Of a stretch of DNA of 64,000 nucleotides, positions 18,919-44,800 are shown piece by piece. Below the pieces are notes generated by a model, which ran no database searches, was not told where the DNA came from, and saw nothing but the letters and a program-made list of their open reading frames with translations. Origin of the DNA: Amphibalanus amphitrite (taxonomy: Eukaryota > Arthropoda > Thecostraca > Balanomorpha > Balanidae); the NCBI RefSeq assembly GCF_019059575.1, contig NW_024882742.1, forward strand, positions 62,001-126,000, in the 5' to 3' direction. The first letter of the stretch is position 1, and every line of letters starts with the position of its first letter. The position numbers and the translations under genes are program-made.

Positions 18919-19994
18919 ATGTCTGTCTCCGTGTTTGGTATGATAGTGGCCGGCCGGCTGGTCAGCACCGATTTCCAGGCGGTCGATGAGACCCACTTTG
19001 TCATCAATGTGCCCGAGGCGGACAACATCCGGCACATCATCGTGTTCCTGACGGGCTCACAGCCGCTGCCGGACAACACGGCCGCCGGAGGTGAGGGCAG
19101 CGCGGCCCGGTCACCGGTGGCTGAGCTGATGGCGGGTGCGGGTGGGAGCTGTTCGGGTCGCTGGGGGATGCGTTACCATGTATTTGATTTGCTAAATGGC
19201 GTGCACTGTGCAGTATAATGTGATCGGTAGCTGGAAAGTGGGTGGCAGGGATATGGGAGGGGTTTAAATCTGACACGGAACTGTGTCAGTGGGTTGTCAG
19301 AACGTTACAGGTTGCGTTTGCTTATCTGCACGGCCACTGGTGGATCAGGGGCCCCGGGATGGCATTCGGGGCATTTGTACCCCTTTCAGTGCCCAGTATT
19401 GACTATGTTTTCGTTTTCATCGCATATAATGAAAATATAACAGCTCTCACATGAAAAGTATCCAGTTATTTAACCCTTCTTGTGTAAACTGTGACGTGTT
19501 GGTCGACGTGTAACTGTTGCGCAGTTCGCTGACTGCTCGCGCCCTGTTCTCTCCCCCTCCCCCCAGTGTACTTCAGCTGGCCGGAGCCCAACTCTCCGCC
19601 CACCTGGATCTACCTGGGCTTCCTCTCCAACAGCAAGCCGTCGGCCGTGTTCAAGGTGGCGTCGCTGAAGCACGGCAGCGGCGCCGCCACCGTACCGTCC
19701 GGCCTGGTTCAGCAGTTCTCGCACAATGCCCAGGTGGGCATCGCCGTCGAGCCGGAGGTGCAGGTGGCGGGCCTGACGCCTGCCGCCGCCGAGCCCTCCA
19801 CCGTGCCGTCGTTTGTCGAATTCGTCCAGAAGATGCTGCAGAACTTTGTCAACTACGCGACCAGCTTCAGCGTGACGCCGGCGCAGATGGCGGTGGCTCC
19901 CAACGAGAGCTATGTGCCGTTGAGCGTGGTGCAGCGCTGGTACGACAACTTCCAGCGCCGGCTCGAGATGAACCCCAACTTTTGGAAGTCGTGA
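18919..19994 (+). CDS. HIKESHI: Hikeshi (heat-shock nuclear import carrier for HSP70)
   Basis: Two coding exons, 18919-19090 and 19567-19994 (stop TGA), are joined at GGAG|GTGAGG and CCCCAG|TG inside a valine codon, giving 199 aa. Hikeshi proteins are usually just under 200 aa. The N-terminus FGMIVAGRLVSTDFQAV, then HFVINVPEAD, VYFSWPEPN, FLSNSKPSAVFKV, FVQKMLQNFVNYATSF and the end WYDNFQRRLEMNPNFWKS match the family from start to finish. In animals Hikeshi carries ATP-bound HSP70 through nuclear pores during heat stress by binding FG-nucleoporins. The start codon follows the acceptor TTTTCACAG at 18882, so a 36-base 5' UTR segment belongs to this exon and a non-coding first exon probably lies upstream. 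The gene converges on the NOX-like gene at 20789. Confidence 0.95.
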
Positions 19995-20788: not shown

Positions 20789-23067
20789 TCAGAAGTTGGT
20801 GCAGTTGAACACCAGACCAGCCTGAGTGCAGGCCTTTTGCACCACCTTGCGGACTGTGCGCGGACCGGAGAAGAACACCTCGACACCGCCGCTACTCTTG
20901 CCGACTATCTCGTCCAGTACCTGTCGGCAGAGGGCGGGGAGCGTTTAATCTGAAGATTGGAGTAACATGCAATGCAATTTGCAATTTTTGCAACATGCAA
21001 TTTTTATCCTTTGATAAAAATTGCACCAGTTTAAACTCTTTGATAAAAACTGGTGCAATATGATCGTCACGGCGCTCTATTGAACCATCGCTACTATTCT
21101 CTCGTTGTTTTCCATGATTTAGGTGCATGTCGCGTTTTTCCTCAATGTGCCATGGTGGCCCACACACAACTAGTCTCCGAAGGAAGTGGACAGTGGTGCA
21201 CAAATCTATCGCCCATCCACTCCAGTCTGGCTTGCGACTGACCTCGTTCCATCTCGGCCGGCCCTGTCGCAGCTGCCTTCTGAGCGGCGTAAACGACGGC
21301 ATGGGCTTGATGCCCGTCTTGAAGAGGTAGAACTCGAGGAAGTTCTCGAGCAGGTTCCTGTGCCTCTGGTAGTGGTCCATGTCTTCGAGCAGCTCGAGGA
21401 ACCATTCGTACCCCTCCATGTCCGAGTTCACCCACACAAAATCCACCTGGGAAGACGGAGCATATTCATACTCGTGCCGTACTGCACGCACTTAGCGAGC
21501 GCAGTCAAGGGGAACGTTTTAGCGTTTACCTATGCAATATGCATGTTCTCACCTTCCGAATGTTCATGAATGAGCTGGGCAGCTGCATCTTGAACTCGCA
21601 GGCGCAGTTGGGACACGGCACAATTTCGGACCGATACCTGCCAACATGAGAACCATCAGCACTCCACCGAGTCGGTCAATCCTTCTCGGTACACCAGTTG
21701 TTACACTGGTATAACTCGCACACAACAAAGAATGATGGTACGGGCGCAAAATAAGCTTAGTAGTGAATACGCCCATGATGCGAAGACTATCACCACCATT
21801 AATATCTGCTCGACCTCCCGTCTGTGCCGGGCAAACTGACAGCGTCGCCTCGTCTCTCGTCTCACCTGATGAGTATGCTCTGCAGCACGGCCGCGAAAGG
21901 GAACACGTCCGGTCCGACCAGGATGATGATAGCGTGCCGAGCCGAGAAGATGCCCACCTTCTCCCCGCCGTAACTGTACGGACCGTCAATGAATACCTGG
22001 CGGCGCACGGCAGTGATAGCGGTCAGAGCAGTGAGCCTGAGACCCAGTCAGTGCGGGTGGAGGCACAATGTCTGAAATCAACCCAGAAGCATTGGAGTCG
22101 CAAATAGTTAAGTCTACAGGCTAGTGTGCGCGGACGGGTAGCGAATGGCCCATTACCATTTGTCTCACGGTCCACCGGCTCGGCGGCCGACGCCCTCACC
22201 CGAATGGTGTCGGCGTACTCGATGGTGTCGTCACCATCGTCATCGACCGCCTGTCGGCGCCGCTTCATGGAGCTGACGATGGAGGTGCCCTCGCCGGCGG
22301 CGGGCGCGGCGGTGGCCTGCATGCTGCCGATGTTGGGCAGACGCTGCCGACTGTCGGCGGGCGGCGCGGCGCCGGCCGGCAGCGGCGGCAGCAGCGGCGG
22401 CCCCGGCTGCTGCGGTCCGCCGCTGCCGTCCTTCTGGTCCAGGGACGGTATCAGCGAGTGGTGCTTCACCTTACGGAACTGCTGGCGGCCGGCCGGCGGC
22501 GCGGCCGTGCTGAACCGCAGCGTCTTACCGTACTCGCGTGTGAACACCGAGTAGCCCTCAGCGAAGCCGGTGAACTGGGAGGCCTCCTGTTCGACGCGCC
22601 GGCCTGCCTGCCGGTACTCTGTGTAGGAGCTGGTCGGACTGGCGCCCGCCGGGCCGGGCAGCGAGCGTCGGCTGGCGGCCGGGTCCGGCGGCGCGGCGGC
22701 CGGCGCCTGGCTGGCGGCCGGTGTGGAGGAGGAGGGCTTCTCCAGCAGCACGGCGGCCGACGGCTCCGGCTCGGTGACGTCATCCTCCGAGAGCACCACG
22801 TCCAGCGTCAGGTGTTTCTCCTCCACCTTCATGGCGTCCACCTGCCGGCGTCGGCGGGGAGGGCGTCAGCAGACGCCGCGTCACCGCTACAGGGGGTCAC
22901 CAGCGACCGGACATACATACAACAGGGCGTGCCTTGTCTGTACCGTCTCGGAGAATAACATTTTAGTTCAATAGTCATGGAAGCTACTTCATCTGTTCAG
23001 GCATAGGTAATAGTATGTGTTCAGTATTTCTCCTCTGGCTAAGGCGATGTCACTTTAAAGGGCGCTA

Positions 23068-23156
<89 letters not shown>

Positions 23157-25627
23157 CCCATCTCTCTCTCCCTCCCTCCCTCCCCCCCCTCCGTCACTGA
23201 CCGGTTAGCGATCGGTCGCGGAGCTCTGATCTGATGCCCAACAGTCATCTCACCTTATTCCTCTGAAGCCGCTCCTTTCTGGTCTCCCTCGGCTTTCCCA
23301 TCGGCACCTCGATGTTCTGGAAGCCCCCGAACATGTTGCGCCACGACTTGACCACCTTCTGTATGACGGTGATGGACTCGAGCGCGTGCAGCCGGTGCGG
23401 GATGTAGTGGAACGACACGTCCTGCAGGAAGTAGTTCCGCAGCCGGAACGACCAGTTGTTGGTGATGTGCACGTGCACGGTGATCAGATCTATGAGCAGA
23501 TCACGGTGATCAGATCTGTCCAAGCGGAGATCGTCAGCGGGAGACGGTGATCGGAAATAGTAGCACTTGAGACAGCACGAGTGACCACCCTGTTATGTGT
23601 TGGATTTTCTCATGATTAGTGTAGCTTAAATATCGATTATACGTCGATATACACCTGCTTTTTCTTAGCGTTTGTCTCTTACCCTGCTGCTCCGGGGCGC
23701 TGGTTATCGTAAACTTCACCCACTCGAACCTCCCGATCTTCGGTATCTGGACGAACACGTAGTCTCCCGGCTTGAACAGCATCTTTGGAGGCCGCTCGAG
23801 GACCAGAACCAGCACCTGGAGGGACAACGGCGCGCTTACGAACTTCCAGTTGAACGTTCACCCCTTGGATGTACGTTTTACCCAAGGTATCGGCTATACA
23901 CGCATAACTATTCACTAACAGAGATCATCGATAACTCGTATGTATTGCCCTATACCTGTATCTCAGACTCCGGTGTAATAATCCCAAAACCCCTATTATC
24001 GCGGATTGGCAATGCCGTGACTTCAGCTCTCACCACGGTGACGGAAGCTCACATTGGAGGGCAGCAGGGTGACCTCTGCGATGGCGGAGCGGCGTGGGCT
24101 GTAGACGATCCGCAGCAGCAGTTCGGCCGACCACAGACAGACGGGCAGCACCAGGTACTTCCAGAACCGTCCGGCGTGCACCATCATCAGGCCGTACAGC
24201 ACCACGTACAGCTGGTGCGTCAGGAAGAACGCCTGCAACGCCGCCCCAGGGTACCCCACCGTCAATGACTGACTGACAGTAGCTGACTGAATGACTGACT
24301 GAGCGATGGCCTTACTAAGACTGATATGACTCGATGAGACTGGTTAGCGGCATCACCAGTGAACAAACTGGGCAGAGCCTGGTCCATCGCCACTCTTGTG
24401 ACCCAGCGGCTCCACCAACTCACCACCTACTGTTCACCGATCTCACTGAGATTCTAAGGTTTGCGAGGGTCACTCAGACTCAGTCACCCAGGTGAACTCA
24501 GAGCCCACCATCCAGTGACCTCGCCACCCACCACCGGTCGGTGGCTCGATGACCCCAACCACCCACTGCTCCCGCCACGCCGGCACACCCACCAGGAAGG
24601 ACATGTGGTGTCTCAGCAGTGACGTGATGACGATGATGAGCACGACGACTAGACAGGCGAAGCCGGAGACGTTCAACTGCAGCTGGTCCGGCCGCTCGTA
24701 CAGCTCCGCCAGGTTCTCCGTGTCCACAACTGACGGCAAGGAAAACGTCACACAGCCGAAGAACTGGAGTCTTTTGATCCTGTGAGCCTACGAAATGGCC
24801 GGCGTTCTGGGTGTTTCAGTCCTGGTCACCGCATCCCCTCATGTCTCGACCGGTAAGTACCCACTCAACGTCTCCATGCACGCACAGGAGTGCGTGCTCG
24901 CAGCGTTCACTCGTGTCCCCAGTAGGCACCCACAGTAGGACTGGGTCTCTCGTAACTGGTCTCCGGGTGATCCAACCTTACGTACCTGCCGTAACCCCAC
25001 GTGCTCCCCCAGGTGCTCTCAGTACCTACCCGCCCCGGTGTGTACCTACTCACAGTAGGACCACATGGCAGCGGCCGAGTGCACCACGGCCAGGATGCAG
25101 ACGGTCAGGCTCAGCGTGCGGTGGATGCTCTTGTGGCTGTTAGACGGAGAGACCATGAAGAGCGGCGTCTCCTGCACCCAGGCCAGGATCCGGCGGCACA
25201 CCGTGATGGGCAGCACGGCAGTGTCCAGCAGCAGGATCTTACCTGGGACAGGGGAGCGGTCAGAGCTCAAGAACAATCCCGCCTAGTCACACTTTATGAT
25301 GCAAGGTGACAGATAGTCCACACACAGCTACCAAGTTCAAGTGAACACTTAGTCATTGGTAATCCATTACATTACAATCGAATTTGAAGATCAGATGCGT
25401 ATTGCGTTAATACTAGCTAGGGTCATTAGAAGGTGAGCTTCGAGCCTGGGTGAGTCACCTGTCCGGGTGGCTCACTCACCGAGTGCCGATGTCACCGACA
25501 CCAGCCAGTCGTCGCTCTCGGCCGCCCGATAGTACAGTGTCAATGAAAAGGTCGCCAGGTTTATACACACAAGAAAACTGTAGAACACCGTCAGTGCGAT
25601 GTTGTTTTGAAATATGTGTTTACCCAT
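20789..25627 (-). CDS. Divergent NOX5-like protein with heme histidines but altered FAD/NADPH motifs (complete, 11 exons)
   Basis: Exons in coding order: 25627-25480, 25242-25054, 24729-24593, 24232-24053, 23815-23683, 23489-23254, 22841-22200, 21996-21866, 21637-21553, 21446-21243 and 20920-20789. The total is 2217 bases, 738 aa. All junctions are in phase with GT-AG borders. The start is GCCATGG with an in-frame TAA two codons upstream, directly before the first helix (NNIALTVFYSFLVCINLATF), so no EF-hands are encoded. Heme ligand pairs keep the NOX spacing: H-x13-H in IHRTLSLTVCILAVVH and H-x12-H in THQLYVVLYGLMMVH. Where NOX has HPFT this has VKFT. GGGIGVTPF is LVGPDVFPF, GPYG is GPYS and the C-terminal CGPP is SGPR. 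Residues 265-555 or so form a long linker. It probably sits in a membrane as a cytochrome; electron transfer from NADPH is doubtful. Confidence 0.85.
22200..22841 (-). CDS. Low-complexity 214-residue linker exon of the divergent NOX-like gene
   Basis: One exon, phase 0 at both ends, opening with VDAMKVEEKHLTLDVVLSED and ending DTIR before VFIDGPYS. It is rich in Ala, Pro, Ser and Gly, with acidic patches and a basic KRRR near residue 188. It has no counterpart by sequence in the neighbouring paralogue, which instead has a different single 207-codon exon at this place. The donor CGG|GTGAGG was chosen because it is the only nearby site that keeps the frame into the next exon. Confidence 0.75.
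23072..23154. repeat. (CT)n microsatellite, about 83 bp
   Basis: Uninterrupted CT run followed by C-rich sequence, in the intron between exons 6 and 7 of the divergent NOX-like gene. Confidence 0.95.
23472..23517 (-). repeat. 26-bp-spaced duplicate acceptor of the divergent NOX-like gene
   Basis: AG|ATCTGATCACCGTG occurs twice, with exon starts at 23515 and 23489. Only the second keeps the frame; the first meets TAG just before the second acceptor. Confidence 0.75.
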
Positions 25628-26690: not shown

Positions 26691-26822
26691 TCAGAACATC
26701 TCCTTGACGAAGCCGAAGCCGAACTTGGCCGCCTTCTCCCTGATGACGCGGCCGAGCGCCGGCGGGCCGCAGAAGAACACCGTCACCTTGCCGCGCCGCC
26801 GGTCCCGGATCTGGCCAAACAC
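26691..26822 (-). CDS. NOX5-like C-terminal exon
   Basis: 132 bases including stop. It encodes VFGQIRDRRRGKVTVFFCGP, then PALGR, ending FGFVKEMF with the aromatic C-terminus usual in NOX enzymes. Confidence 0.92.
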   Translation of the reverse strand: MFGQIRDRRRGKVTVFFCGPPALGRVIREKAAKFGFGFVKEMF

Positions 26823-29800
26823 CTGGCAGGTGCACCGGGCAGCGGTCAGTGGAGGGGTACTGAGGGGTGCCGGGGGTCACACAGGGTCGATCGGGGTCAA
26901 AGTCGCGACAGGCGGGACACAATAAGTTAATTGGGGTTACTGACATCACTGGAAGTATGTGGATGGGTATTTAAGATCACTGAGAAACAAAGGTCACTGG
27001 AGGGGCCCGGCATCAACACTGCTGCAGATCACTGAAATCGCTACAGATCACTTGGCGCTGATTGATCGCTTCAGACCACTCTTGGCTCACATACCGTCAC
27101 CCGTCAGTACTTACAGAGCTGATGACACAGCACCTACAATACCTCCCGGCTCCCACCTACCGCTCGACACCCCCGGCAGACTGACCTTGTCCCAGTCGGG
27201 CCGTCCCTGTTTGACCTCGTTGCGCAGCGGCACGGCGCCGACGATGGGCAGTGAGGACGTCTTGTGCAGCTGCATGGTGAGAAAGCTGTCCAGCTGGCTG
27301 CCACGCCGCTGCTGCGACTCGCGCAGCTGGTGCAGCAGCTCCAGGAACCACTCGAAGCTGCGCATGTCGCGGTTCACCCACACAAAGTCCACCTAAACGG
27401 GCGGGCATGGCAGGCGTCACATAAGCTGTATGCATGACAGGTGGGGATGACCAGACACACATCCATTCGAATACTGGACACTTTTCAGAGGAGAAGTAGA
27501 TTAAAAGTAATCCTGGACGTTAGATATTCTTTAGAACGTTTCACTTATAATTTTTCTCAGATAAGGAAAGCTGAGACATATCCATCGCCACTCCTGTCGC
27601 GCTCCAAGGTACCCCCACATTATACACATCTGACCGGAGCAAGAGTGAGTTCAGTGTCCATACCTTTTTCAGTTTGAGCATTGACGAGGGCATTTCCAGG
27701 CAGGTGGGAACCAGGCAGTGAGGACAGGGCCGGTGTGCCGCGTTATACCTGAAACAGAGCGACACAGTCAGGCGTTTGGTAGATCGGCGCTGCAGAAGAT
27801 GAACACTTAGATCAGGAGTAGGTATTGGTGGGTGTAGCTGGCCAAAAGGCTTCCTAAATTGTCGGACCTATTTACCTTCATTATTCAAATGTGCTAATAC
27901 ATCTGAGTGAACTGAATGAACTTCAAGCCAATACCGAGCAACATAGGTAAATACATTAATAATTTTGATACTTAGCCGCATAAGCCATAAAGTAAACAAT
28001 AAGAAAGAAGAGTGAAAGAGGCAACAACACGTCCACGCTTGACCGGCATATTATACAGGATGTGTATAAAGGCGTATGTGGGGTATGCTATGGGCGACAT
28101 TCGACCTCCTGTCCTCACTGACCGGCCCATGATGCAGTGTGTGTTTATGGGTATGTGGGATGACACTGGAAAGGAAGGCGACCCCCTCGTCCACTTCTCA
28201 TTTACCGGTCCATGATGCAGTGCAGCACCGACGCGAACGGCGTGACGCCGATACCGCCGCCCACCAGCACGGCATGCTGCGCGTGAAACACACTGGTGGA
28301 TGGCGCTCCGTACGGACCGTCCAGGATTATCTGCCGGGGCACAGACAACGTCATACACATGATCGCTAGAACCAGCAGGAAACGATCACTGTTTCAGACA
28401 CAGGCAGAGCTGATGAGAACTTAGGTCATCAAATTTGTCGATTTAGTCTAGGTACGTATGACGACAAATTTACTTAATCCAAGCGTGCATCATAGAAGTA
28501 GAACTCTCACCAGCTCATCGCTATTGAAAATAGTCATGCCCACTGCTGATACCCACCTTCCAGCTGAGTTTATCGACGGTCCCCTTCTGAAGCGAGTGCT
28601 GTTTATGGACGGCGCCGGCCTCTCTGACGGAGCCGGTCCTGCAGCCGGCCACCGTCCCCGGACCGGGCGCCGGCCGCTGGCAGCCCTCTGCCTCTATCCG
28701 CTTGGCCGACCCCTCTGCCTCTCTCCGTTTGGCCGAACCGCTGCCGCTGCAGCCGCCGGCACCGACCGTCGCCTCCGGCACCTGCGCCGACACCGTCCTG
28801 ACCGGCTCGACGCGCTCGTCGCCCACAAACCCGGCGTTGTGCAGGCCGCCCGGACCGTCCCCCGCCGGGTTCTGACAGGAGAACCCGTGAGGGGCCGACT
28901 CGGCCTGTGCCTGACGCAGCCACTCCAGGCGCTGCAGCTGCTCGGGCGTCACGGCTGTTACACCCGACTTCCGCTGCGCTGGCGGTGGCGCTACCGTCGC
29001 CGGTGTAGGTGGCGCCAGCTGCGGGCAGACCAGGTCGCTGGGGCCCGGGTGGGGCGTCGCGGTGGCCTTCATCAGTACGAACTGGTCGTAGAGGAAGGAT
29101 TTGAGACACGCCTCCAGCACCTTGTCGTGCAGACTACGGGTCCACTCGCCGACGGCCCGCACGTGGAAGGTGATCTGGTCTGAAACGGTCAGTGGCAGGG
29201 ACGTCAGACATTCGCCAGCGTCAGCAGTATGGATGGAGCTCCATTTACTTAGTAAGAGTGCTTCAGATGGAACAGCATGTCAAAGATTTAAAGAAAATAA
29301 AGATTCAAAATACTTTCTGGTATACACTGTCATTATAAATTTGCAATGATGTGATCCACCAACATGATCATCGGCTGACCACGGCCACCTGCCGACCCAC
29401 CTACACAAACCTCAACGCTTTATTCCTGCGCCACATGGAGCCCGTATGTTAGAAAACTCACCTTCGTTCTCTGGCGAGCTGCTGATGGTGAACGGGTGCC
29501 ACTCGTACTTGGCCACGGCCGGTATGTTGACGTAACAAAAGTCGCCGGGCCGGAACACGAAGTCGGGCGGTCGGGACACCGTCAGCCGCACCACCTGTGA
29601 AATCACACAGAATGGTTGAATACGTTATAAAATCGCAAGTACGGGCGACAAGAGCCATCGACGTTTGAACATCAATGTTACCAGACTCAGTGATCGAGGA
29701 TCACAGGTACCGGCGTTAGAATACAACATGGTGCATCGGCGTTGATTATCACAGGTACCGGTGTAGTCTTTTCACAGGTAACGACGTAAGGTTACAGGAA

Positions 29801-32800
29801 CCGACATCAGTTGTATCACAGGTATCGATGCTTCATGCTTGTGTTAGCTTTTAAATGTAGTCGGACTGCGGTTGGGTATACAGTCAAAGCAGTCGGACAG
29901 AAGTCATGACTGGGGCCATCAAATATGGTATATAATGTACTCTTGTGAGGAGTTGCACGGGTTGCTGAATGCAGAGTCTGCATGGGTCATGGCGTGGTAG
30001 CACTCTCCATCACCGTCCCTCTGTACAACATCACCCATTAGTGCAGAATGACCCAGTATCCAGCCGCCCGTCGCCAGCCAAACACCTGCTGTCCGCCGAC
30101 GACCCACTGACGTCATCACAACCCAGTGCCGTCACCGTATGTATAACTGGCTGGTCAGCCTGCAGTCGGCCAGGGCCGCGGTCCTGTTGTGGTCCGATAT
30201 CCATCTCCTTCCGCTGCACACCGCCGCCAGAGCTTCCGGAGTTACCATGAGGCGTGGTCTTATCTCAGGAAGTAGCTTACGAAGGCGTGGCCTACGCTCA
30301 GGAAGTACAGTAGCAGCTAGGAAGGCGAGGTCAACGCCCAGGAAGGACTCCAGGGAGGTGTGGTTTACATTTATAGAACGATGCTTTTCATGTCGAACGA
30401 TGCCACACATCCAGAGCGATGCCTTCCGGATAGGTGAAGCCGGTGAGGCGATGCGGCTGCTGATCTAAGAAATGGCCATCATGGAGCGTGTTTTCTCTCG
30501 GGGGCGAATCCCTCCCCAGCAGTAACGGACTGCGCACGGCGGGTGAAGATGAGGCCACAGAGGTGAAAAAAGGTGTCAACTCTCCAACCGGTGTTGGAGA
30601 CAGAGTCAATCCAATAAAGGAAGGTCGTCGGAGACACAACCACTTTAATATAAATAATAATCTCTTTTCATTGTTGTCGCAAAATTCTTCTCGTTTTTCT
30701 TTGATGCACGCAAAAAAATCAATCATATTGAGTCTTAGTTCATTACGAGAACTTCATACTCCATAGCACTATACAGTATACATAGGCTGCCGGAGACACC
30801 GGAGACAGAAGGTGGCGAGAAGGTGATTACTCCTAGAGCCGGGCGGAATCCATAAAGACGATTCTCTTTGACGCTTGCCGCGAAACTAGACCTTACGGCT
30901 GTCTCCGGAGACACGAAAGAATTTCAGTAGCGAAAACGCTAGCACAAACCCTGCGCACTTGTGACAACGCGGCGCAGCTTCTGAAAATGCCGTTGGGTTG
31001 GGATAGTAGCGACAGTGAAGTGTGCTTGAAGTGACTGAAGAGAGTAGTTGGATCTTGGTTGAATCTACCTAGGTAAGACTAAAATAAGACAATGGTTGAG
31101 GTTGGGGAATAGTTATCAAAGTTGAGGAATCAATAGGTACTGAGGACATATTGAACTTTTCAAACAAAAGTAACATATATTGTACAAAATCCCTTGTGAA
31201 TGATTTTTATTATATAGTTGATGCAGGAACACTCGTTTTCCTTTCATTTGTTTTATATTTCAGTTCAAGGTTCAGTTCTGATTGACTGATTTAGGAATGC
31301 ATGTGAAGGTGGTACAATACATTGATTGCATTTTTTTTCTACAAATACTTCAAAAGGAAATAGACAAATCTGAAGTGATTTATGTTGCTGAGTGCACTTC
31401 TCTTTGAATTTCAAAAATTTTAGATTAAGTATTCATAAGAAGTTTTATTCAAGCTTGATGTTGTTCCTTGTCCTAGCATCAATCCATGATGTCTAAAACT
31501 TGTTTCGGCCTGTTCCAGCGCCTCCAGAAACCTCCAGAAAGCTCCAGAAAGCTCTAGAATCCTCCAGAGAGCGTTCCAGCGCCTCCAGAAAGCTCCAGAA
31601 AGCTCTCGCCAAAGCTCCAGAAACCTCCAGTAACCTCCAGAGAGTTGAGAGGTCCAAATTTCTCTGGAGGCTCTGGTCTACAATTATGGCGCAAATGTGA
31701 CAATCACGAATGTAAACAAAGGACATTTGACTGATTATTTTACAACTTGAATGTAAAGAAAATTACATTGCTATAATTTTATTTATCTTTTTAACTAAAA
31801 TTGAAAACAAGTTCTGCATTTCAAGAGAGAACAATCGTCATTCTTTTGGTATCTATGACGCCAATCTCCAGAAATCTCCAGATTGCGTTCCAGCGCCTCC
31901 AGTAAAACCTCTGGTAGAGCCTCCAGTCAAGAATTTCTTCTGGAGGCGCTGGAACAGGCCCTATGTACCCATTATACAAACCACATGGTTTGATATTTGC
32001 AGATTGAGGTGCACAGCCTCAATGCAAGCATTTGCAACAAGCATTTACCTATATTTTTGAACCATTTCTGGACTTCCTGTTGGAAGTGAAGAGCAAATAC
32101 TCCAGTCATTGTTTTGATTTTACAAATATTAAATCTTGGTGGTCTATATCAAAGCACCCATCTTGCTGACACCTTCAGGTAAGGCCAGAGATCAGTCTAA
32201 ATATGTGCATGCATCTGAATGATTTAAAACAATCCAAGTCTTCATTGGTGCTTATATCAATGTAAATGTGCTATTTTCATTGGCTTACTCCCATGCCTTC
32301 GATTTCTGCATGGCAGAGGAAGCATTTATTCAAAGGTAATTATAGCTTTAAAATAGTAGGGAGATGCGAGATGACGTTTTCATTATCAATGCATAACTTC
32401 ATTCCAGTAGCCAAATCAGTCCCCTGCAGTTCTGCATTTCTCGACCTGCCAACGGTGGCCATGACGGCTGGTAAGGCCCCGGTCCGGCAGTTGGCAGTAG
32501 CGCCACCTACACTGAAGGTCGGCGGATCCCGAGGCCACGGGCCGGCCTGGCCCGACCGTGGCAGACGAGCCAGGGAGCGGGCGGCAGGGGTGGGGAGGGG
32601 TATCCGGGAAAGACGGGCAGCATTGCACTTAATAAACAAGGTTGGTATTAATAATTTGCCTGGAGTATCCGCGAGTCTTTTTAAGGCAGGCGCGACGTTA
32701 CCCAAATATAACTTGCTTTTAATTGGAGAGTTGGTAGGCAAATTAAGGCATTTGCGTGTTGCTCATTGACTAGCCCTCTGTTTTGGAATAACACCCGGTA

Positions 32801-35800
32801 ATGCTGCCCACAAGTGCAGTGCTAGCCTGCTTTTTTGTCTGTTTTAGGTATACATAGAAATGATTGAACGCCCTGCTAACCTAAATTTGTTCGTAGGTAA
32901 TTCTTACGATTTGTTTGAAGTGCCGACCTCCGAAGGAATAGTCCTTTCGAAAGCTAATACTTGCGTCCGGCTTTTAGTTTAGGAAAATAACACCCATTGT
33001 ATTCATAAGTATTGCTGATTTAACAGCAAAGTAAGTTGAAAAATTTTAATTTCCTTGCCTTTGTGTAGATGAAGGAGAGCAGCCACCAGCACACACGTCT
33101 AGCCGATCCTCTCACAGCCTCCACACTGCTGCCCATTGCCCAAGGGCCAAGGACCGACCGTAACATCTGTGTGCCATAAAATGGTACAACGGCGTCTTTC
33201 ATCAGGCGGACCCCAATGCGAACGCCACGCGGACCGTCCGTAATCGCGTTATGCGCCAGGCGCGGCCATAGCGCGGGACGCGACGCCAGCGCCGCCTATC
33301 GGCAACGCCAGAGAACTAAGGTCGGTGAGAGCACGGATTTTGATGGGTGATAGCGCAGTGTGAAAAAATAGGAAAGTTACATGAAAATGTCGCTATACTA
33401 CGGTATAGTTCACCATCTGAGCGACATATTTATGTATTTTTATCCATGGCGGATAAAAATTGGACCCGGGATCTGGCCATGGAAGAAAAAAATGTTGGTC
33501 AGTGTAAGCACGGATTTTCGTGGAAACTAGCGCAGTATGAAAAAATAGGCAGCTTACATAAAAATGTCGCTATACTACGCTGTAGCTCACTAACTGAGCA
33601 ACACATCTCTGCACTTTTTATCCATAGGAGAGAAAAATTCGACCCGGGATCGGGACATGGAAGAAAAAAATATTTGCACCACCAAATGAAATTAAGATAC
33701 ATCACTCCCGTTATATTTGTATTGAGTCTTTCATGAAACAATTTCGCTATACTACGGCAAACAGCATGACGTCTCGCATATATTGAGACATATTTTGACA
33801 ATGCAATGTAGGTATAATACAATTTGGAATGTTCATAAACATTTTATCTTCTCCTGCCAAATCCCGGTGCCAATTATCCCCGAATATTGGTAAAAAATAC
33901 GTCAGGGTAAACGCATATTACTGAATTTAATTGCATTATATCGCATTTTTCAGTTTATCGTTAAGTCTCCACACAGGGACGTTTTCATCTGAAGTTTGGC
34001 CGCCGGAGCCACCGCGAGGCCTAGTTGCACGAGTAGCCGATAGTCGGCGCCACCGTCGCACTCGGCCGCAGCCAGTATACTGCCAAAAATGGAGCTATTA
34101 TGATATCGCTCGTTGGTAACTAAGTGTGGCGTGCTTCATAAATGATCGCCGCATAGAGAAACAACCGTTTAATGAAGAAAATGACTTATATTTTACTCAT
34201 AATAACAATCTGAACCCCAATGTCCGCTTCTATATGGAGTTTGGCGCATAACGGAACGGTTGGTCCAGGACGACTGACGCAGGGCTTAGCTGATTTTGTC
34301 TGGTCTGACACAAGCTCTATAAGCATTGGTAAACCATCAGTTCAATTGTTTTGAGTTGACCTCGCGATTGAAGCATAAAGGCTAGTCATTAGTCTATCCC
34401 AGAAACAAATACACCCTTCGCATTTGTTCGCGGCATTCGTGTAACAGCGGTTCAAAAGCATGGGAACACAGCATAAACACAACCAGTCTTTCAATGGGTA
34501 TTGCTGGGTCCAGATGGCAGAAAGATGGCAGAAAGTTTTTGAAGGTAAAAAAGGAACACTCCCCAAAAAGCAACTCCGAAATCCAAAATATTCTGTTTCC
34601 ACTTATTGATCCTTTTTCAGCCCTTGAAAATACTTCAACTTTTATCTAACGGAGCTTGAGTGTCTTTCAAAGCCAAAAATTGTAAAGTTTGTATTAATAA
34701 GGGCTTCGTGTGCTGCTCAGCCAAAAAAGTTTACAATTTGCCTGGAGACAGAGCCAGTATGCCAGCTTATACAGTTGGAGACAGCGTAGATATTTTTTTC
34801 ACCTCTGTGAGGCCAGACCCTGACACCCCACTCGGTAACCCGCCCCGGACACCCCACTACAACTGCAGCCCCATGTGAGCCGGCCCGGCGCCCAGACGGT
34901 GTAACGCTCCCCGCTGGGCAAGGGCTGTCTGCAAGAGCTGCAAGGGAGTGTCCGTCTACCGCGGAGAGCGACCGACCACAGTGAACTGAACGGGGAGAGG
35001 GAGAGGGGGTGACTCTAATTAATACCCGGGAATCGATAAGCGATGAATGACTGAAACGAGCGTGAGCTAACCTATCCGATGGCGGCTCCGCACTGCACCA
35101 AACCGTCCGACAGCAATTTTGGACTAATTTTAATCGCAAGCAATTTTAGGCCATTACTTGATACTTGACTCAGCACCGCAAGAATTAATGATGTGCCCAA
35201 GCTACCGATGGCAGCTTGAAGGGGTTGCATACCGCACTGATAGATGGAAATCAGTAAATCATTAACCACCAATTATGACCATTGACCACATCGATCTCCA
35301 ATGAGCCAATAACTAACCTACCGGACCTGACCTTGGCCAATGAGCCGGGGAGCTGTCATCAGGCCCCACTGAACCCGTCCCTCAACTTCGACTTCGGAGA
35401 GAACCGGGAGACCTCTGACGTCATTCCACAGCCACGGCTCGTAAAACGGCACGCCACGTAAACGATGCCGTCGATAGACGTAGTAACTGGACTCCCCGTC
35501 GAAAGACCGACAATTATGCCATAAACCGATCGTTTAGCATTGCTGATAGTTTATTGAGGACCTCATTGTATCCCCCAATGACCCATTGTCGGGAGGTGAC
35601 CTGACCTGATTTCTGCGGTTCCTTCTGCAGGGGTTGGTAAGGTGGTTTAGGGGTGCAGACGCACCCTTCAGTGCCAATCGCACCACTTTGTAATAATAAT
35701 GACACAAAGCACCTGGCCAACGGGCATCGTTGGACGGCGGTGTAACCTACAGCCTTTTGTACCGAGCTCGCTGGCCCTGGGCAGTTATCGGCGATGGAGC

Positions 35801-38800
35801 GCGAAGTGACCTGGCCTCGCTAGATGGCTGTGTGAACTGTAAATGGTCAGCTAACCTTACTGAGTCGCAGCGTGTCCGTGTGCCATGTCCTGACTTCACT
35901 GGGTAACAGAGTGACCTGTGACCTGTCAAATAACCTCACTTGGCAGCAGAAAGGCGGCAGTGACCTGTGACCTGGTAGGTAACTGACTTCATTGGGCAGC
36001 AGGGTGACCTGTGCCGTATCGAATGACCTCACTTAGCAATAGAGTGACCTGTGACCTGTGTACTGACCTCGCTCGGCAGCAGGGTGGCGGCGGTGACGGT
36101 CGATCTGCCCCGGTCGCTGCAGACCCGGCTGACCCGACAGGCCACTTCCAGCGCAAACAGGGCGCCCGGCACCAGGAACCACTTCCAAAAGTTGGGCGAG
36201 TGCAGGATGAGCAGCACCCAGGTGGGGATGCTGAGCAGGTGCGTCCAGTAGAATATCTGTCCGGGGAGAGAGAGGGGGCGTCAGGTCAGACCGAGAGCAG
36301 AACGAGGCAGAGGGATGTGTAGCTCACAGGCCGCTGTAAACCAGTATGCAGACCGCAGAAGTCTATGGATGGACGTACAATCAGAAGGGACTATCAGAGA
36401 ACTCTTCACATCTACAGCAACTCAGATGACGCTCATTCCCCCATCACAGATCCTAACACTGACACACGGTAACTATAGCTCAGTCAGACCGAACAGGGAC
36501 AGCCTACACCAGCACAGCCGCGGCCAGCTGCCGAGTCCCAGACTGATCGGTCCTCGATCAGCCAATCCTTATCCACATCAGCGGTGTGCCGCCGTCACAA
36601 ACCGCCAACACCTGACCGCTAACGCCGACCCCCGTCTGTGCGCAATGACGGAGCGGTGACCGAAAACAATGACTGAAAACCGACCGCTGACCGCAGGCGG
36701 CACGTGCCGGGCGGTCAACCGCCGCCGGGCGACGACTGTCGAAATGGTACCGAGTGGCGAAACGGCCGCCGGCCGGCCGGCCACGGTCGCGCCCTCAATG
36801 CAGCGCCGGGGAGCCGCCGCGGTAAGACCGTTTGGTGGGGGCTGAATGAACAGCGGATTGCTCACCATGCCGTCTGGTCTGACTGCTGGCCGTTGCTCGG
36901 TGCTCACGGCTCACGCTGAAGGGATAGGTAGCTGCTAACGAGACCAAGTGAAGCGAAACAATAGCTAGCTGAAACTCTAAATACTAATCAGTATTGAACA
37001 CACTGTTAATGCTCAAACTTCAAAGCACGATTCCCGAGCATATGCGAGGAAAGACGGCACCTTCAGCCGACCCAACACACTGTCTTGGCGGCACCCCTCC
37101 ATTCCCATCCCCACCCATGACTGTAGGTATTGGTGCCGGCGGCAGCAGCGCTCTACGGGCCCGCGCTGGGTCACTGCGCAGTGCGCAGCCATCAGCGGCG
37201 TATGCAGCGCGCGCCACGTGCCGCCCAAGGCTGTCACGGAGGCCGGCTCCCCCACGGCGCCGAGCGAGAGGCAGGGTCACCATCCCCGTTCAGAGGACGA
37301 TGAAACGCGCCCGGCCGCAAAACGGCACATTACGGCCGCTCCACGGGAACAACGATACGCCTGGCACCGTCCGTTTTAACAGACAAGGTAGCAGACCGGA
37401 AAATAGCTTATTTAGGATTTTTGACGGGTGACGAGCATGAATGGCCCTAATGCACGTTTATACGCGGCGGTAATGTTGGAGTAATAGCACCGCATCAGCA
37501 TTATGACACCGCTCATGTTTTAGCAACGCTGTCAATGTCATATGAACCCACCCGCTGACTAATATGCCTCATATGGTTACCAGCGGGGCCTTTCAAACAC
37601 TCATTCATTTTATCCGACCGGAGCAACAGCATCAAGCGTTCGAGACACTTTGATCAAACGATCAGCACGATTAAGCCCCATCTAACCACGGAGCAGGGGC
37701 TGAACCAGGCCCCATTGGAGCAGCCGTTTGGCCGAGCTACCAGCGCAGGTTCGTGACGTGCTCTGATCGATCCGGAGGCTGTTACACGCCCCCGTTACGC
37801 CCCCGGCCGGTCTCGGTCACGGTGCATCACAGACCCCTCGCCGGGTCGTGAGCCCGGTCCCATCTCCTATCTGCCCCGCCCCGCCGACCTCGGGGCGCAC
37901 ACCGCCGTCAGGGGTCACGCCAGGTCACCGAGGTCACCGGCGCCCGCCAAGGATGACGGCGGTGGGTCGAGCCGTCACCCGTGTAACTATGCGATCGAGA
38001 CCGGCGCGGCAGCCACACATAGCCGAGAGCTAGTCATAGATCTCGAGTTATGGTGGGAGAGAAACAACAGCACAACAGGTATTCAACCAGCGCCATTTTC
38101 CGACCAATTGAAACGCTGCAAGTTTCAGGCCATTCTTCATCGTCAGCCTAGAGACCTTGACATCGCGGACACATGAGCTCGTGCGCGAGCCTGACGTGCA
38201 TACGATACTATATTTTGTAATTGAAAGCGTTTCAGATGCACCTCAGCTCAGCTCAGCCAAGCGTTGAGTGATCAACAAAGCCTGCCACACTGTCAAAATG
38301 TAAGGAATACGCACCAGAGAACTTCACAAGAAAATCTCTCATTGTCATGAATCGATGCATGCGACGTATTATAAGTCATAAGTCTCAAACCTAACGTAGT
38401 ATCCCTCGATGCACGTAGACCACAGACAGCTCGGCAGTCCGAACAGCGCACCTGCGTGGCCCATCAAACCGTGACGGTCGGACCACCCCGGCGCGACGCC
38501 GTGAAGGCGGGGGCCCGGCCGCCCGTCGGTCGGTCGGTCAGCCTTGACAAGCACGCCAGGAATGTGGGGGCGCCGAGCGCACCAGCTGATCGGGAAGGTC
38601 GGCGCCGTGCCTCGCCGGGGGCCACGGCCGCGTGCCGTGCCGGGCACCGTACGGGACGGGCCCGATGAGCAGGGGGACGGGGGGGGGGGGACTGGAGGAC
38701 GCATAGGAGTCTGACTATGGAGAGCAGATAATCTGGGGGTCTGAGACACTGAGGCCCACGTCCCTGGGATACGGTCCCAAACAGATGGTAGACTGAACAC

Positions 38801-41800
38801 ACTGTGCGCAGACAGTTTTAATGCCATGGAACAGCCTATACGCCGGTGATTGCCAAAGATGCCATAAACAAAACAATGGCATAGCCGTGTCAAGGTCCAC
38901 ACATGACACAACCAGTAACGACTGTTCCTAGTAAAACAAAAACGGCTAGCCGTGTGTGGCGAGTTGTGGTAAATAAAATCTTCAGAAACGTCACAATTTA
39001 TGACAGAATGACAAAGGCAGCTGGCGGTAAAGTAGTAGCAGTCTCGATGTCATTACCGTGTCTAGTATGGTCGGTGCGAGATGACGATTATTTCCGTGCC
39101 CAGTCCTGCGGGTAATATCGTCGTTAGTCCGTGAGCGGCGTCATTTGCCGGGCCGTGACCCAGTGATTGAACCGTGACCCATGACCCGTGTCACTGTAAC
39201 CGACACCGCATTAAATCGACCACCGACAGACTGAACCGTGACTCGAGTCGCTCCATACCGCACTGCCATATGCCACTGCCATTGCCATATGCCACTGGTG
39301 TTTGATGATATATGAACATTAGGCCCTTGCTTCATCCCCACTCCATGGTGTTAGTAGCCCAGACGGTTTGGTTTATCCTCGCCAGTCCAACGGTCTGTAT
39401 CACTGTCTCAGCCCATCATACAATCAATACCCACATACAACACATGCATCATCCAGACCACACCACCCCAACCCATCCAAACGTCAGACGGGCTCACTGG
39501 CGGCCTTCGAAGGCCGCACAGCGACCCATATTACCCTTCCCTGTCGCACGCACTGTGTCAACCGCACACGGCAGTCTCCGCAGCGGTTAGTAGCGGCTCG
39601 GCGGCTCCGAGCCGTCACCGTGCGGTACCCGCAGCCAGCGCGGCGCGGCAGTCAGGCGGAAAAGGCCGACGGGAGATCTTATCAGGCGTGCGTACTGCGT
39701 ACTCGGCGGGTGGGGTGGGGTGGGGGAGGCGTCTGCAGCTAGCGGCGAGAGATGGATGGATGGGTGGATGAATGAAATAAAAGATAGATGGATGGGAGGA
39801 TGGATAGACAAGCGGACGGATGAACGGGCGAATGGAAGAAGGGTGAACATATGAATGAATCGACGGAAACACCGACCGACTGTCGGACGGCAGTTCTCAT
39901 ATGTAGGTCAGTTCCAGAGTGATCGCGGCCGGCGCTGCAACAGTCGTGCATGCCACCCCGATAGCAGGCTGCGATGGCCGTGATATATGGCAGTTACGGC
40001 GCACATTATACGACCAAGCCCGTCTCTGGTTACCAGGCGGGCGGTTATACCGGTAACCGCGCGGCATTAGCAGTGACTGAGGCAGGGGAAACCAGGACTA
40101 CTAGCAACAAGGCAGCTAGTAACTGTAACCGATGCCGCATTTCGTTGCAGCAGTGAATCGGAAAAAGCCAGGGACTGTCTGGCTCCCGCACGTGGTAAAC
40201 AACTGGTCAATGCAGTGTTGCAAGTTGCAACAAAGAGATACATGACACATCTAGTTAACTCCCCTCCCTCCATCAGTGACCATTACAATTGGCACAGGCC
40301 TCCCCCTGTTGATGCAACCCCCCCCCTAAGGTTTTTCGCGAATAACTCGCGTAAACAGCGGCCGATCGCGACGAAACTTTTAGTACCCTCGCATTGATCA
40401 ATTTTACACCTACCCTGAAAATTTCATGACCCTGACCCAAATGAACTTTGACCTGTGACCAGGGGCGGCGCCACGGGTTTTCGATAGGGGGGGACGGGGA
40501 CTGTAGCTGTCCGAAAATCCCAAAAGTAGATACTGATCGTGTATGCAAAAAAAAAAAACGAGGCACGTAACGCCACGAAACTTGGCAAAGCCCAAAACAC
40601 ATCGAATGGTGCATCCCGTTTCCAAACTTATCCTAGGACACCTAAGATCGATCACCTTTTCAAGCATCCTTGCCTCTAAATCAAAATTTGCAGTCTTGCC
40701 AACTCAAAGCTGGTTTCCTACAAGCTGCGAATTGCTTAGGGATACTGGCCGCGTGGCCGAGTGAACTGGGTGTCCGGCTGGAAATCCGGAGGCGGGAAGT
40801 TCGCGACCGGTCGGTCAGTGTCGAGTAGCAGTGCCAACTATTCTTACGTTTCGTACTTTCAAATTTTCGATCTTACGTCTGGTCAGCTTCATGGCTTCAC
40901 CCCCATATAGTCATGGAGGAAAAGTGGGAATGTCTTCTGCTCTGACAAGTGCGCCAAAACTGCAATATACTTTCAGAATCATGACATCACCACCTGATCC
41001 ATATGCAACGGGCAGGGTGCAGCTAATGGCTAGCCGTCAGTGGTCATGTCATTGGTGGTCACTCAAAAGGTCATGCTAGGTCATGGAAGGTCACCAGCCG
41101 TTATTTGATCACACTTTCTTATGGATTTTACTTACCAAGAGCTTCGCGGGAAAAACGAGCGCATGCCGCATGCACCGTTGAAAAAAAAAATGAGTGAAAG
41201 GGTCTCAGGTCCGGCGGCCTCTGCAGGTGAAATGCCCCAGGGTAGGATTCCGGTCCTTGTTGATTAACTTCGTCAAAAATGGCAGTAGAGCTGTGATGTC
41301 GGCACCATTGTGTTCGTCATGATCGAGCTGGCACGACCTGCATCGTTCTCATATTCACCCTCCAATCGTAACAACACAGCATGGGGATTGGCAAATGGCG
41401 GGGCACCCCCTTTGGGAGGTAATGAAGGTCTCTGGAAACCTCATCCCTCATCTCTTTAGACTTTAGCATTAGTGGCTCTCCTTATGGAACAGGTTTCTTG
41501 ACTGGTCTGTTTCACCCCAGAATTCAAAGACTAGTCAAGGTAAAACCGAGCGTACCACAGTGAGCACAATTTGATAAGCTGGTGTATCTCAGTTTCCATG
41601 TAGAACCTTTCACGTATCACGTACCTAAAACACTTTCGTGCACTCATGCAAAAGCAACTGCCATGTTTCAACAGCTGGTAATGGCATTTTCACAGCCGCT
41701 GACGTAAGAAGGGGAGGGGGCTCGATTAGACCCCCAGCCGTTCGGCCGCCGACCGAACTTAGTTTTGCAGAAAAAAAAACGAGTGCTATCGAACCCCTTG

Positions 41801-44800
41801 ACGAGAGGGAGCCGATGCTACCCAATTATAAGGTCTTGGGCTACTGCGTGCTTTTTTGGTCCTGCCTATGATCTATCCGAACACTTCTCCCCACAAGTGC
41901 TGGGGTTAAATGGCATAGATTTGAAATGGTTCCTGTGGTAGAACTGCCATGCTTGAATTTGACTAATTAGGAATGGAAAATATCCATATAGTAACGGAAA
42001 TCTATGGAATTTCAGTTAACTTGGTTTTGTCGGCAATGGGGTCTGGCAGTGGGGTGGGGAGGTAATAACCCTGCCTGGCGCCCCAAAAAAGGGGGGGCAC
42101 GATCCCCGAGGCCCTGCCGATCACCTTATAGGCATCACAGCTCCACACCTTTTGCAGATGGCCAGGACCCCCTGCGATACATCCCAACAGCAATCTTTAT
42201 TCAGAACCTGCCTTGATTAACCAACGATGCATTAAATGCGACGGATAACTTTACAATGCATTATTATCAACTATTGAACGGGCCTCGCCGATAGGGGGGT
42301 ACTGTACCCCCCTAACTTTCGATAGCGGGGGACCTGTCCCCCCCGTCCCCCCCGGTGGCGCCGCCCATGCCTGTGACCTCTTTTCCGAGACCATGTTTGG
42401 CCGGAATCGCGTTTCGGCGTATGTCGGCGCGCATTAGCCGCGCGTTTGCAAGCTTTTCGTGGTTTCAAACGTTCAACCATGTGATTTGATGTTGCTCCCA
42501 TACATTAGGGTGAGTGTCAAGGTCACCTGAAGGTCAGGTCAGGTCATTGACCTTTGGTGACCTCGGGTGACCTCGGTTCACTTTTTCGAGTTTTACATGT
42601 TTCTAGGCTAGTTTTGGAGCTGAATTCGAATTTAGCAACCATTGGAACATTTACGAAGTAGTTTTGATGCCTTCGTAACATGTTACGAAGCTGTCAGAGG
42701 CGGTTGACACGTATTACGAATATCCGTCACAACCCCTACCGGTTGACCTGACCTGACCTGACCCAACCTGGTCTAAATGCTTTTAAAGACATCATCTCTG
42801 ATCAAAACTAACACGATATTCGTGATCAGCACCCCGAAAACCACATAGCAGCCACACTTTACGACTTTCTAACAGGTCCCGATTTTCACGGTTTTCGGGT
42901 CATTGACCTGACCTGGAAGGTCACCCGATGACCTAGGACCTTAAAGTAGGACCTAAAATAGGACCCTTGTGCCGTCGAAGGACGCAAAATGGCCTGTGCC
43001 GGCGAGAGTTAAAGCAACCATGGGACACACAGGAGACTGAGAGCGACGGACCGAGTCAGGGATGTGACGTCATCATCAGAACTGACACATGTGACATCAT
43101 CGGTCCACCGTCCTCCTTGTCACAATCCATCTCCAGGCGGCGTCAAGCGACGCGCGTGGGCACTGGTCCTCTGTAGATCTAAGCTCCGGTGTGGTCATAT
43201 ATTCAATCGGTTTCGACAATCACGAATGTAGCCGCTGCCGCTGGGCGGCGGGCAGCATACCGCTATCATGACATTACAAGAGAAGTGAGGGGAGGGAGAG
43301 GAGGGGAGTGGGATGGTAGAGCTGTTGGGAGGAGATGCTCTACGGACCACCACCCAGTCCTGTTCGATCGGATAGCTGCCGGTACCGGTTGCACACACCG
43401 AGCACGGTGGGGTAACGATACATTCAGTCGCGCGGGAGCATCCCTTTCACAGAGGGGGCATGCAACGCAGTGAACCGTGAACGGGGGCTGGCGCAGCGGA
43501 GCGTAAAAGGTCCATGGCAAGTCTGTGTTTGCACGTAATGACCCGTCAATAAAGAGACTGAGGCTAAACTTGAGGGGGATTGGTGACTATTCGGAAAGTC
43601 AACAGTAAAACGTCTTTTTTTACCGGCGGATTCATGGATCAGCATTACAGGATTGTGACTACGGATGCCTAATCTCAGCATACCACAGTCCGCCCCGTCA
43701 GTTACTACCTATTCTGAATTCGTCAGAGAGCGTCATTGGGTAATTAAATCGCGGCTGGCCGGCGGCGAAGAACCCCGCTGTGCCGTTACAATAAACATTC
43801 CTCCACGTGCACGGACCATACCCGGGAGCCGGAGCCGTGACGCTCGTCAGCTGATGGCGGAAATCCCCTGCACACTGGCGCCGCGGCCCTGACCTCCCCT
43901 CTCCCACCTCACACCCTCTCTCCGCTCCCCGCTCTACCCTCTCGGCACGGCTGACCGCCGTCAGCTGTCACTGTGCAACTAACTGCCTGCTTACAACACT
44001 CGGACCGGTCCACCCCACGTATGACCCCCGCCTCTAAACGGACACCCAGCCCAGGACATTACCCCGAGTACGACCAAAACGCACAGAGACCCGTGGACCC
44101 ACCCTGCCGACCACCACCCCTCCGCCCGTCTGCAGGCCGTCAGAGCTCCTACTCCCGCCGTAATGGAGCCGGTTTCAAAACAAAACGGCGCCGCCGCTTC
44201 CCATAACAATCAGTCGGCTTTTGGCGTGCCGTGGCCCCCGCCCGACGTAAGTTACACCACAGCGCCGCCAGCAGCAGGGCACTAGCGCAGACTGCTGACT
44301 GTGTGGGAGCGCTGTGGGAGCGCTGTCATGGGCAGGGTCGCCGTATGCAACACCAGGGAGTCAAGAAATGGAGGTGGAAGAGACAGGACGGCGCTTCGCA
44401 AAATCTAAACAGTCCCAGTTTGAAGTTTTTGCTTACACGCTGAAGGTCGAGCTAGCCAGAAGCGAGTTCGTATGTTAATGAACACGTAACATCTGACCGT
44501 GGCTAGCGATGCCGTGCAACTAGTGCAACGACGCATCGCATGGCCCACACTGGACGCAGAACTTATAGCAGCTCCCAGCCACGATTCCATATCGCTCTCC
44601 AGTATCATTTAGGTACTGCGGGTACTGGACCCTCAGTGGCTGCAATCTGTACCAAGCAGAGTGTCCATCCCTGAGGTGCTGTTTGATTCGGCCTCACCCG
44701 GCCACGGCCACTGGGTGTCGATCACCCCACTTGCCACATCCAGCCGAGACCGCGCCGCAGTGACCACAATATCACCTCCCCTCCGTCCGCCCTCCCACCG

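Follow-up and report, generated by a model that had tools for sequence, protein, structure and literature searches.

A NOX5-type gene that retains its heme ligands, has altered flavin and nucleotide sites and is conserved between two copies in the barnacle Amphibalanus amphitrite

We analysed a stretch of 64,000 nucleotides from the genome of the barnacle Amphibalanus amphitrite (C1245:62001-126000), here called the window, and searched the 807.6-Mb assembly (2644 contigs) for related genes. On the minus strand of the window, at 25627..20789, we identified a gene of the NADPH (reduced nicotinamide adenine dinucleotide phosphate) oxidase, or NOX, family, hereafter the focal gene. Its protein retains the heme ligands and has lost residues of the sites for flavin adenine dinucleotide (FAD) and NADPH, and its coding sequence is under strong constraint. 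Most likely it is a heme-binding pseudo-oxidase that partners a NOX without catalysis of its own, or restrains one; taken as a whole, we give this statement an even chance.

A rebuild of the focal gene gave 11 exons with good splice sites, a coding sequence of 2217 nt and a protein of 738 amino acids (aa) plus stop. This is the same model, with the same boundaries, as had been proposed from the letters of the window by an earlier, sequence-only reading. The ten introns are GT-AG throughout, with consistent phases, and an in-frame TAA lies two codons 5' of the ATG. Intron 6 contains a long run of CT dinucleotides (about 23075-23155). The exons and the tandem paralogue next to them are given below in window coordinates (TM, transmembrane helix; NOX5a is a NOX5 gene elsewhere in the genome).

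25480..25627, minus: exon 1, start codon and TM1 (MGKHIF...), homologous to the TM1 exons of the paralogue and NOX5a
25054..25242, minus: exon 2, TM2-TM3 with heme ligands H90 and H104; R66 (NOX2 R54) retained, A108 at the NOX2 H119 position
24593..24729, minus: exon 3, shortened TM3-TM4 loop, TM4, and loop D with R152
24053..24232, minus: exon 4, TM5-TM6 with heme ligands H164 and H177
23683..23815, minus: exon 5, FAD lobe, VKFT (251-254) in place of HPFT
23254..23489, minus: exon 6, FAD lobe, HVHITNNWS (268-276) for HIRxxGxWT, the NOX2 R356 equivalent gone, followed by a basic stretch
22200..22841, minus: exon 7, inter-lobe insert of 214 aa, low-complexity and P/A/S/G-rich, the sole site of protein difference between two copies of the gene
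21866..21996, minus: exon 8, nucleotide lobe, 2-aa insertion in GPYG, LVGPDVFPF (581-589) for GGGIGVTPF
21553..21637, minus: exon 9, CPxC stretch in common with NOX5
21243..21446, minus: exon 10, nucleotide lobe, NSD for NRD (R635S), GRPxW retained
20789..20920, minus: exon 11, SGPR for CGPP (713-716), C-terminal F738 retained, stop
26691..56009, minus: neighbour, a NOX5-like tandem paralogue; the 10 exons recovered for TM and dehydrogenase encode 682 aa, counted from TM1

The focal protein exceeds the Pfam cut-offs for Ferric_reduct (37.1 bits against 28), FAD_binding_8 (60 against 22) and NAD_binding_6 (30.3 against 22.2), and thus the match is not due to chance. These scores are lower than those of the neighbour (41.4, 82.7 and 75.2) and NOX5a (55.9, 84.4 and 104.6). 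The three domains and the spacing of the four heme histidines place the protein in the NOX/DUOX family by descent. Among solved structures, residues 159-738 match NADPH oxidase 5 best (6sz5, E 4e-53), ahead of cyanobacterial NOX5 chains, NOX2 (2e-22) and DUOX1. Residues 1-113 match a single chain, the TM domain of a cyanobacterial NOX5 (5o0t, E 3e-5). NOX4-art, an arthropod NOX, is a relative of NOX4 without EF-hands. The focal protein is similar in that respect, but it is NOX5-derived, has lost the intact residues for production of reactive oxygen species (ROS), and has no NOX4 chain among its nine structure matches.

The neighbour retains HPFT, GPYG, GGGIGVTPF and CGPP, as the sequence-only reading had said. 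Canonical NOX5 genes with EF-hand exons are located on C189 (NOX5a, with a second copy that we read as split between C1284 and C410) and on C766 (NOX5b). Three intron positions are common to the focal gene and the neighbour and absent from NOX5a and NOX5b (after LLPS[EN], after the GVTPF exon and inside GRPxW), and both genes lack the KAVGLQLALDLL loop and its intron. The two differ by one extra intron in the focal insert and by a shift of one codon at the exon 2/3 junction. Across the 488 columns they have in common with NOX5a and NOX5b, identity is 33% for focal-neighbour, 32% for focal-NOX5a (31-32% for NOX5a and NOX5b), 48% for neighbour-NOX5a and 84% for NOX5a-NOX5b. A tree places the focal protein beside the neighbour, with support of 94/93 for the branch separating the remaining 13 rows. 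The focal branch is about 3.5 changes per column, and the tree tool warns that this long branch and that of the neighbour may join falsely. Thus, it is because the introns and the loop deletion are shared, rather than from the tree with its artefact warning, that we take the two genes to be old tandem sisters, probably a NOX5-derived pair. The best structure match, tree position and shared introns all indicate NOX5 as the closest subfamily. An ancient genome duplication is reported for barnacles (PMC11331182); if a barnacle duplication made NOX5a and NOX5b, the focal-neighbour split looks older, judged by identity. In their two final exons, the DNA identity of NOX5a and NOX5b is 97.0 and 99.5% (C189:655212-655774 vs C766:287191-287861), compared with 90% in the preceding exon and 80% in the sole earlier piece aligned by blastn, which suggests gene conversion between these paralogues.

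EF-hand exons were sought with a profile from cyanobacterial NOX5, which replaced pattern scans that missed the NOX5a exons. It matched C189, C1284, C766 and two C46 loci that we read as DUOX-like (E 1e-21 to 9e-8). No EF-hand exon was identified for either tandem gene: the best values in the window were E 3.7 and 17, and no match was listed in C1245:126001-146000 (up to 28 kb past the TM1 exon of the neighbour) or C473:180001-240000. The focal gene is therefore without the N-terminal EF-hands of NOX5 within the regions scanned, and EF-hands appear to have been lost from both tandem genes, unless the exons sit farther off. The neighbour had been described as an intact NOX5-like enzyme. It is motif-complete, but, with no EF-hand exon found, it is no ordinary NOX5; the combination of a complete motif set, no detected EF-hand exon and a long linker makes it unusual in itself. 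The acceptor and first codons of its TM2-TM3 exon lie inside a tandem repeat with units of 63-71 bp (two units in the window at 50653-50587, minus strand, and five at C473:220707-220989).

The eukaryotic relatives compared by sequence here are those of the window's own genome, the sole eukaryotic genome searched. Two scans of genome contigs for relatives outside it confirmed none of 56 candidate stretches and 13 of 82, all 13 bacterial, and a search of viral contigs with residues 1-283 identified no relatives.

Equivalences to NOX2 residues are our own, from alignments with solved structures and NOX5-type proteins. The heme ligands, by homology, are H90/H104 (14 apart, TM3) and H164/H177 (13 apart, TM5), which bears out the earlier claim of four heme histidines at NOX spacing; the NOX2 histidines are given as 101/115 and 209/222 (PMC3591440). 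In the FAD pocket, H338, P339 and R356 are replaced by V, K and H, with F340 and T341 retained (F253 and T254), so the set of five found in NADPH oxidases is incomplete. P339, F340, T341 and R356 are described as FAD-pocket residues of NOX2, and H338 as a disease position (PMC13296129). In the nucleotide lobe, G412 is D, the Arg of NRD is S, C537 is S and E568 is T, and P415 (P588), G538 (G714), GRPxW and the C-terminal F570 (F738) are retained. Where a functional nucleotide site has GxGIGVTPF, the NRD Arg and CGPP, the focal protein has VGPDVFPF, NSD and SGPR. At the oxygen-reducing centre, R54 is retained as R66 and H119 is A108; the corresponding residues of csNOX5 are R256 and H317 (PMC10510401). 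Thus, the heme end is altered too, despite retention of the heme ligands. H338, P339, R356, H119, G412 and E568 are all named as FAD-pocket, oxygen-centre or disease positions in the account of NOX2 in PMC13296129.

The replacements of HPFT, GGGIGVTPF and CGPP noted in the sequence-only reading are all present. That of GPYG by GPYS needs correction, as the site is altered by a 2-aa insertion (GP[YS]YGG) rather than a plain G-to-S substitution. Motif loss without frame damage also stands, but not its confinement to four sites. Fourteen NOX5-type proteins with a full set of motifs (11 from cyanobacteria plus the neighbour, NOX5a and NOX5b) have 106 invariant columns when aligned, of which the focal protein retains 71 and alters 35 (12/33 in the TM region, 10/23 in cofactor motifs and 13/50 in the rest of the dehydrogenase). 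The four motifs are thus apparently part of a wider change in the sequence. Loss was not significantly enriched in the cofactor motifs VKFT, HVHITNNWS, DGPYSYGG, LVGPDVFPF, VNSD and FSGPR, tested with the retained GRPxW and C-terminal Phe left out (kept/lost 13/10 vs 37/13 and 21/12; Fisher P 0.18 and 0.78). When invariance is judged from NOX5a, NOX5b and the 11 cyanobacterial sequences, 144 columns qualify; 106 of these are retained in the neighbour and 82 in the focal protein.

With both the FAD and the NADPH site lost, no transfer of electrons from NADPH is expected from the focal protein alone, and judging from these residues it very probably does not work unaided as an NADPH oxidase. An active oxidase or reductase that binds FAD and nucleotide through other residues is improbable. 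The equivalents of H338, P339, R356, G412, the NRD Arg, the CGP Cys and E568 are all replaced, several of them at NOX2 disease positions (PMC13296129), the GPYG turn has an insertion, and the oxygen-site His is gone. Consistent with residual activity are the three Pfam domains above cut-off, the retained F253, T254, P588, G714, GRPxW and F738, a level of constraint about equal to that of NOX5a (see below), and the published view that certain NOX without H119 produce ROS (PMC3591440).

The same assembly contains the focal locus a second time, as a diverged copy on contig C473. None of the 11 exons is missing there, the splice sites are intact, and the motif substitutions are those of the window copy. 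At the protein level, two substitutions and an insertion of two residues distinguish the copies, each of them within the exon-7 insert. The coding sequences differ by 49 synonymous and 2 non-synonymous changes (per-site proportions pS 0.090 and pN 0.0012; pN/pS 0.013). By region, synonymous to non-synonymous counts are 19:0 (TM), 7:0 (FAD lobe), 12:2 (insert) and 11:0 (NADPH lobe), that is, 37:0 outside the insert and 18:0 for the two dehydrogenase lobes together (binomial P 2e-12). Introns of the copies are mismatched at 264 of 2432 aligned sites (10.9%), with 33 gap events. Divergence of the exons in the same way would have produced some 174 non-synonymous changes, 7.7 stops and 30 indels, whereas the counts found are 2, 0 and 1 (in-frame). 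As controls from the same genome, copies of NOX5a gave 19:1 and 15:0 (34:1 in total), and those of the neighbour 42:8, of which 22:2 fall in the five leading exons and 9:0 in the four final ones. Purifying selection on the focal protein looks very strong, as strict as on a working enzyme, and the 18:0 count places the site-dead dehydrogenase itself under selection. The focal gene is thus almost certainly a real, constrained gene, and the description of it as a retained pseudo-oxidase is strongly supported by the pN/pS value and the 18:0 count.

The two copies are most simply haplotypes, because NOX5a shows a similar pair at similar pS; very high allelic diversity is reported in one barnacle species (PMC8270832). 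A recent segmental duplication is an alternative origin that would leave the selection result unchanged. Aligned pieces of the two contigs are mostly 85-96% identical, with one 5-kb stretch at 99.2% (window 31961-36960 vs C473:204531-209521) that takes in the TM5-TM6 exon of the neighbour and could be a shared haplotype or gene conversion. The comparison with the paralogue that the sequence-only reading had proposed as a measure of selection was made, but pS is near 0.5 (0.48-0.55) for all five paralogue pairs other than NOX5a-NOX5b, whatever their protein identity, which makes that ratio uninformative. This plateau is probably due to GC-biased use of third codon positions (GC3 0.864 in the focal gene).

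These counts bear directly on two other explanations. A pseudogene, or a recently released gene in the course of being lost, would account for the very long tree branch and the lost motifs; it is the least credible alternative, given the low pN/pS, no stops where about 8 were expected and one in-frame indel against about 30. An absence of coding constraint is not what the copies show, and we reject it. Scarcely more credible is an artefact of gene model or assembly, with alternative exons that restore the motifs, as the low pN/pS and the same substitutions in both copies speak against assembly errors. A motif scan of the gene span identified no other stretch resembling HPFT, GGGIGVTPF or GPYG, and only one HVR and one CGPP-coding 12-mer, the latter in intron 10 (21164-21153, minus) of both copies. 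Such a 12-mer occurred in only 2.2% of simulated intron sets, which favours an exon; however, read-through from exon 10 meets it in different frames in the two copies, and the nearest AG examined would not splice it in frame. We judge it to be chance despite its low simulated frequency. In the first ~200 bp of intron 10 (21242-20921), which includes the VVCGPP-coding stretch, a 7-nt gap and a small number of substitutions separate the copies; further on they differ in length by 69 nt, with inverted-repeat-like sequence in the window copy.

We propose that one member of a NOX5-derived tandem pair became a pseudo-oxidase that is still protein-coding. By homology, its six TM helices would carry both pairs of heme ligands, and a dehydrogenase-like domain would follow in the cytosol. 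Both hemes are presumably still bound, FAD would no longer be held (equivalents of H338, P339 and R356 lost), and neither would NADPH (Asp for G412, and the NRD Arg and CGP Cys lost). The protein may pair with a NOX enzyme, the neighbour being the first candidate, and pairing through the TM and dehydrogenase surfaces would hold down, stabilise or localise that enzyme. That the focal protein acts through another NOX is a tentative proposal, which we place somewhat below even. Precedents for non-catalytic action are inactive NOX5 variants, stated to be dominant negative (PMC4081039), and EROS, whose binding to NOX2 excludes FAD (PMC13296129).

Alternatively, the hemes may still carry electrons across the membrane, supplied from the flavin of another protein (the neighbour in a heteromer, or a separate reductase). 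The four heme ligands and R66 are retained, presumptive metalloreductases, unlike NOX, are also without the H119 equivalent (PMC3591440), and the same role has been proposed for STEAP1 in STEAP heterotrimers. However, STEAP1 is without an NADPH domain. The focal protein retains a full dehydrogenase-like domain, with 11:0 in an NADPH lobe that a simple acceptor would not need, and a cytochrome that carries its dehydrogenase as mere baggage fits poorly with such tight conservation of the dead lobes. A cytochrome fed in this way, for which STEAP1 is the analogy, is possible but unlikely. The pseudo-oxidase could also be a dedicated, heme-loaded regulator within a NOX5-type oxidase that is encoded by two genes and has no EF-hands, forming a heteromer with the motif-complete NOX 1 kb upstream, replacing calcium control or p22phox-like stabilisation, and perhaps receiving electrons from its partner; we consider this speculative and would not expect it to hold in full. 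A search of the genome for p22phox (PF05038) gave no match, and control genomes were equally silent, so this result is uninformative.

Several points weigh against the pseudo-oxidase reading. The retained F253, T254, P588, G714, GRPxW and C-terminal Phe may allow weak cofactor binding. Because the losses show no significant concentration at cofactor motifs, they may reflect rapid change of the sequence in general and not loss aimed at these sites. The estimate of selection rests on one pair of copies. Absence of H119 is known among some NOX in-paralogues, and knock-out of Dictyostelium NOXC lowered ROS (PMC3591440); by analogy with NOXC, loss of this residue is by itself no proof of inactivity.

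Compared with known systems, the focal protein is closest to NOX5 (human NOX5, and NOX5a and NOX5b here), with which it shares the three-domain architecture (Ferric_reduct, FAD_binding_8 and NAD_binding_6), the CPxC stretch and the best structure match. It differs in having no EF-hands found, replaced FAD, NADPH and oxygen-site residues, the 214-aa exon-7 insert and, relative to NOX5a and NOX5b, the three different intron positions. STEAP1, too, is a heme protein of the membrane from a family of reductases and is unable on its own to use NADPH (PMC7363144), but the focal protein keeps its full-length, site-dead dehydrogenase under selection and has two heme-ligand pairs, so the likeness is an analogy only. 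Inactive NOX5 variants are known as splice forms, such as NOX5-S/epsilon, and as inactive polymorphic forms, and inactive forms are stated to be dominant negative (PMC4081039). They arise by splicing or as alleles from a gene that is itself active, whereas the focal gene is a separate, long-diverged locus. The NOX2 partners p22phox and EROS are non-catalytic and NOX-bound, with EROS and FAD mutually exclusive (PMC13296129), but here the proposed partner protein is itself a NOX paralogue.

Our searches of the open-licence full-text literature found no description of a conserved, separate NOX gene that is dead at both flavin and nucleotide sites. In a published survey, animals with NOX5 mostly possess just one such gene, tardigrades being an exception (PMC9421330), and a sponge-specific NOX variant (PMC9524095) and NOX4-art of arthropods (PMC5372347) have been reported. 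Pseudoenzymes as such are already known. If confirmed, NOX would join the families with retained pseudoenzymes, with a dehydrogenase domain kept for a role other than electron transfer, and the protein would provide a natural dead NOX for testing NOX5 pairing and trans-inhibition. It would also be a warning for annotation. Domain-based calls may label the focal protein an oxidase, as all three Pfam models pass, and the four-histidine filter described in PMC9524095 would likewise pass it.

Other features of the window include two open reading frames (ORFs) in opposite orientation (1177-2022, plus strand, and 7889-8704, minus strand) that have a long, nearly identical stretch in common, which we take to be an IL-17-receptor-like (SEFIR) cytoplasmic domain. 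An ORF at 19533-19994 (plus), presumably for a Hikeshi-like protein, lies beyond the 3' end of the focal gene in convergent orientation. Frames at 53360-53999 (plus) look like a broken transposase, which we take to be of mariner type.

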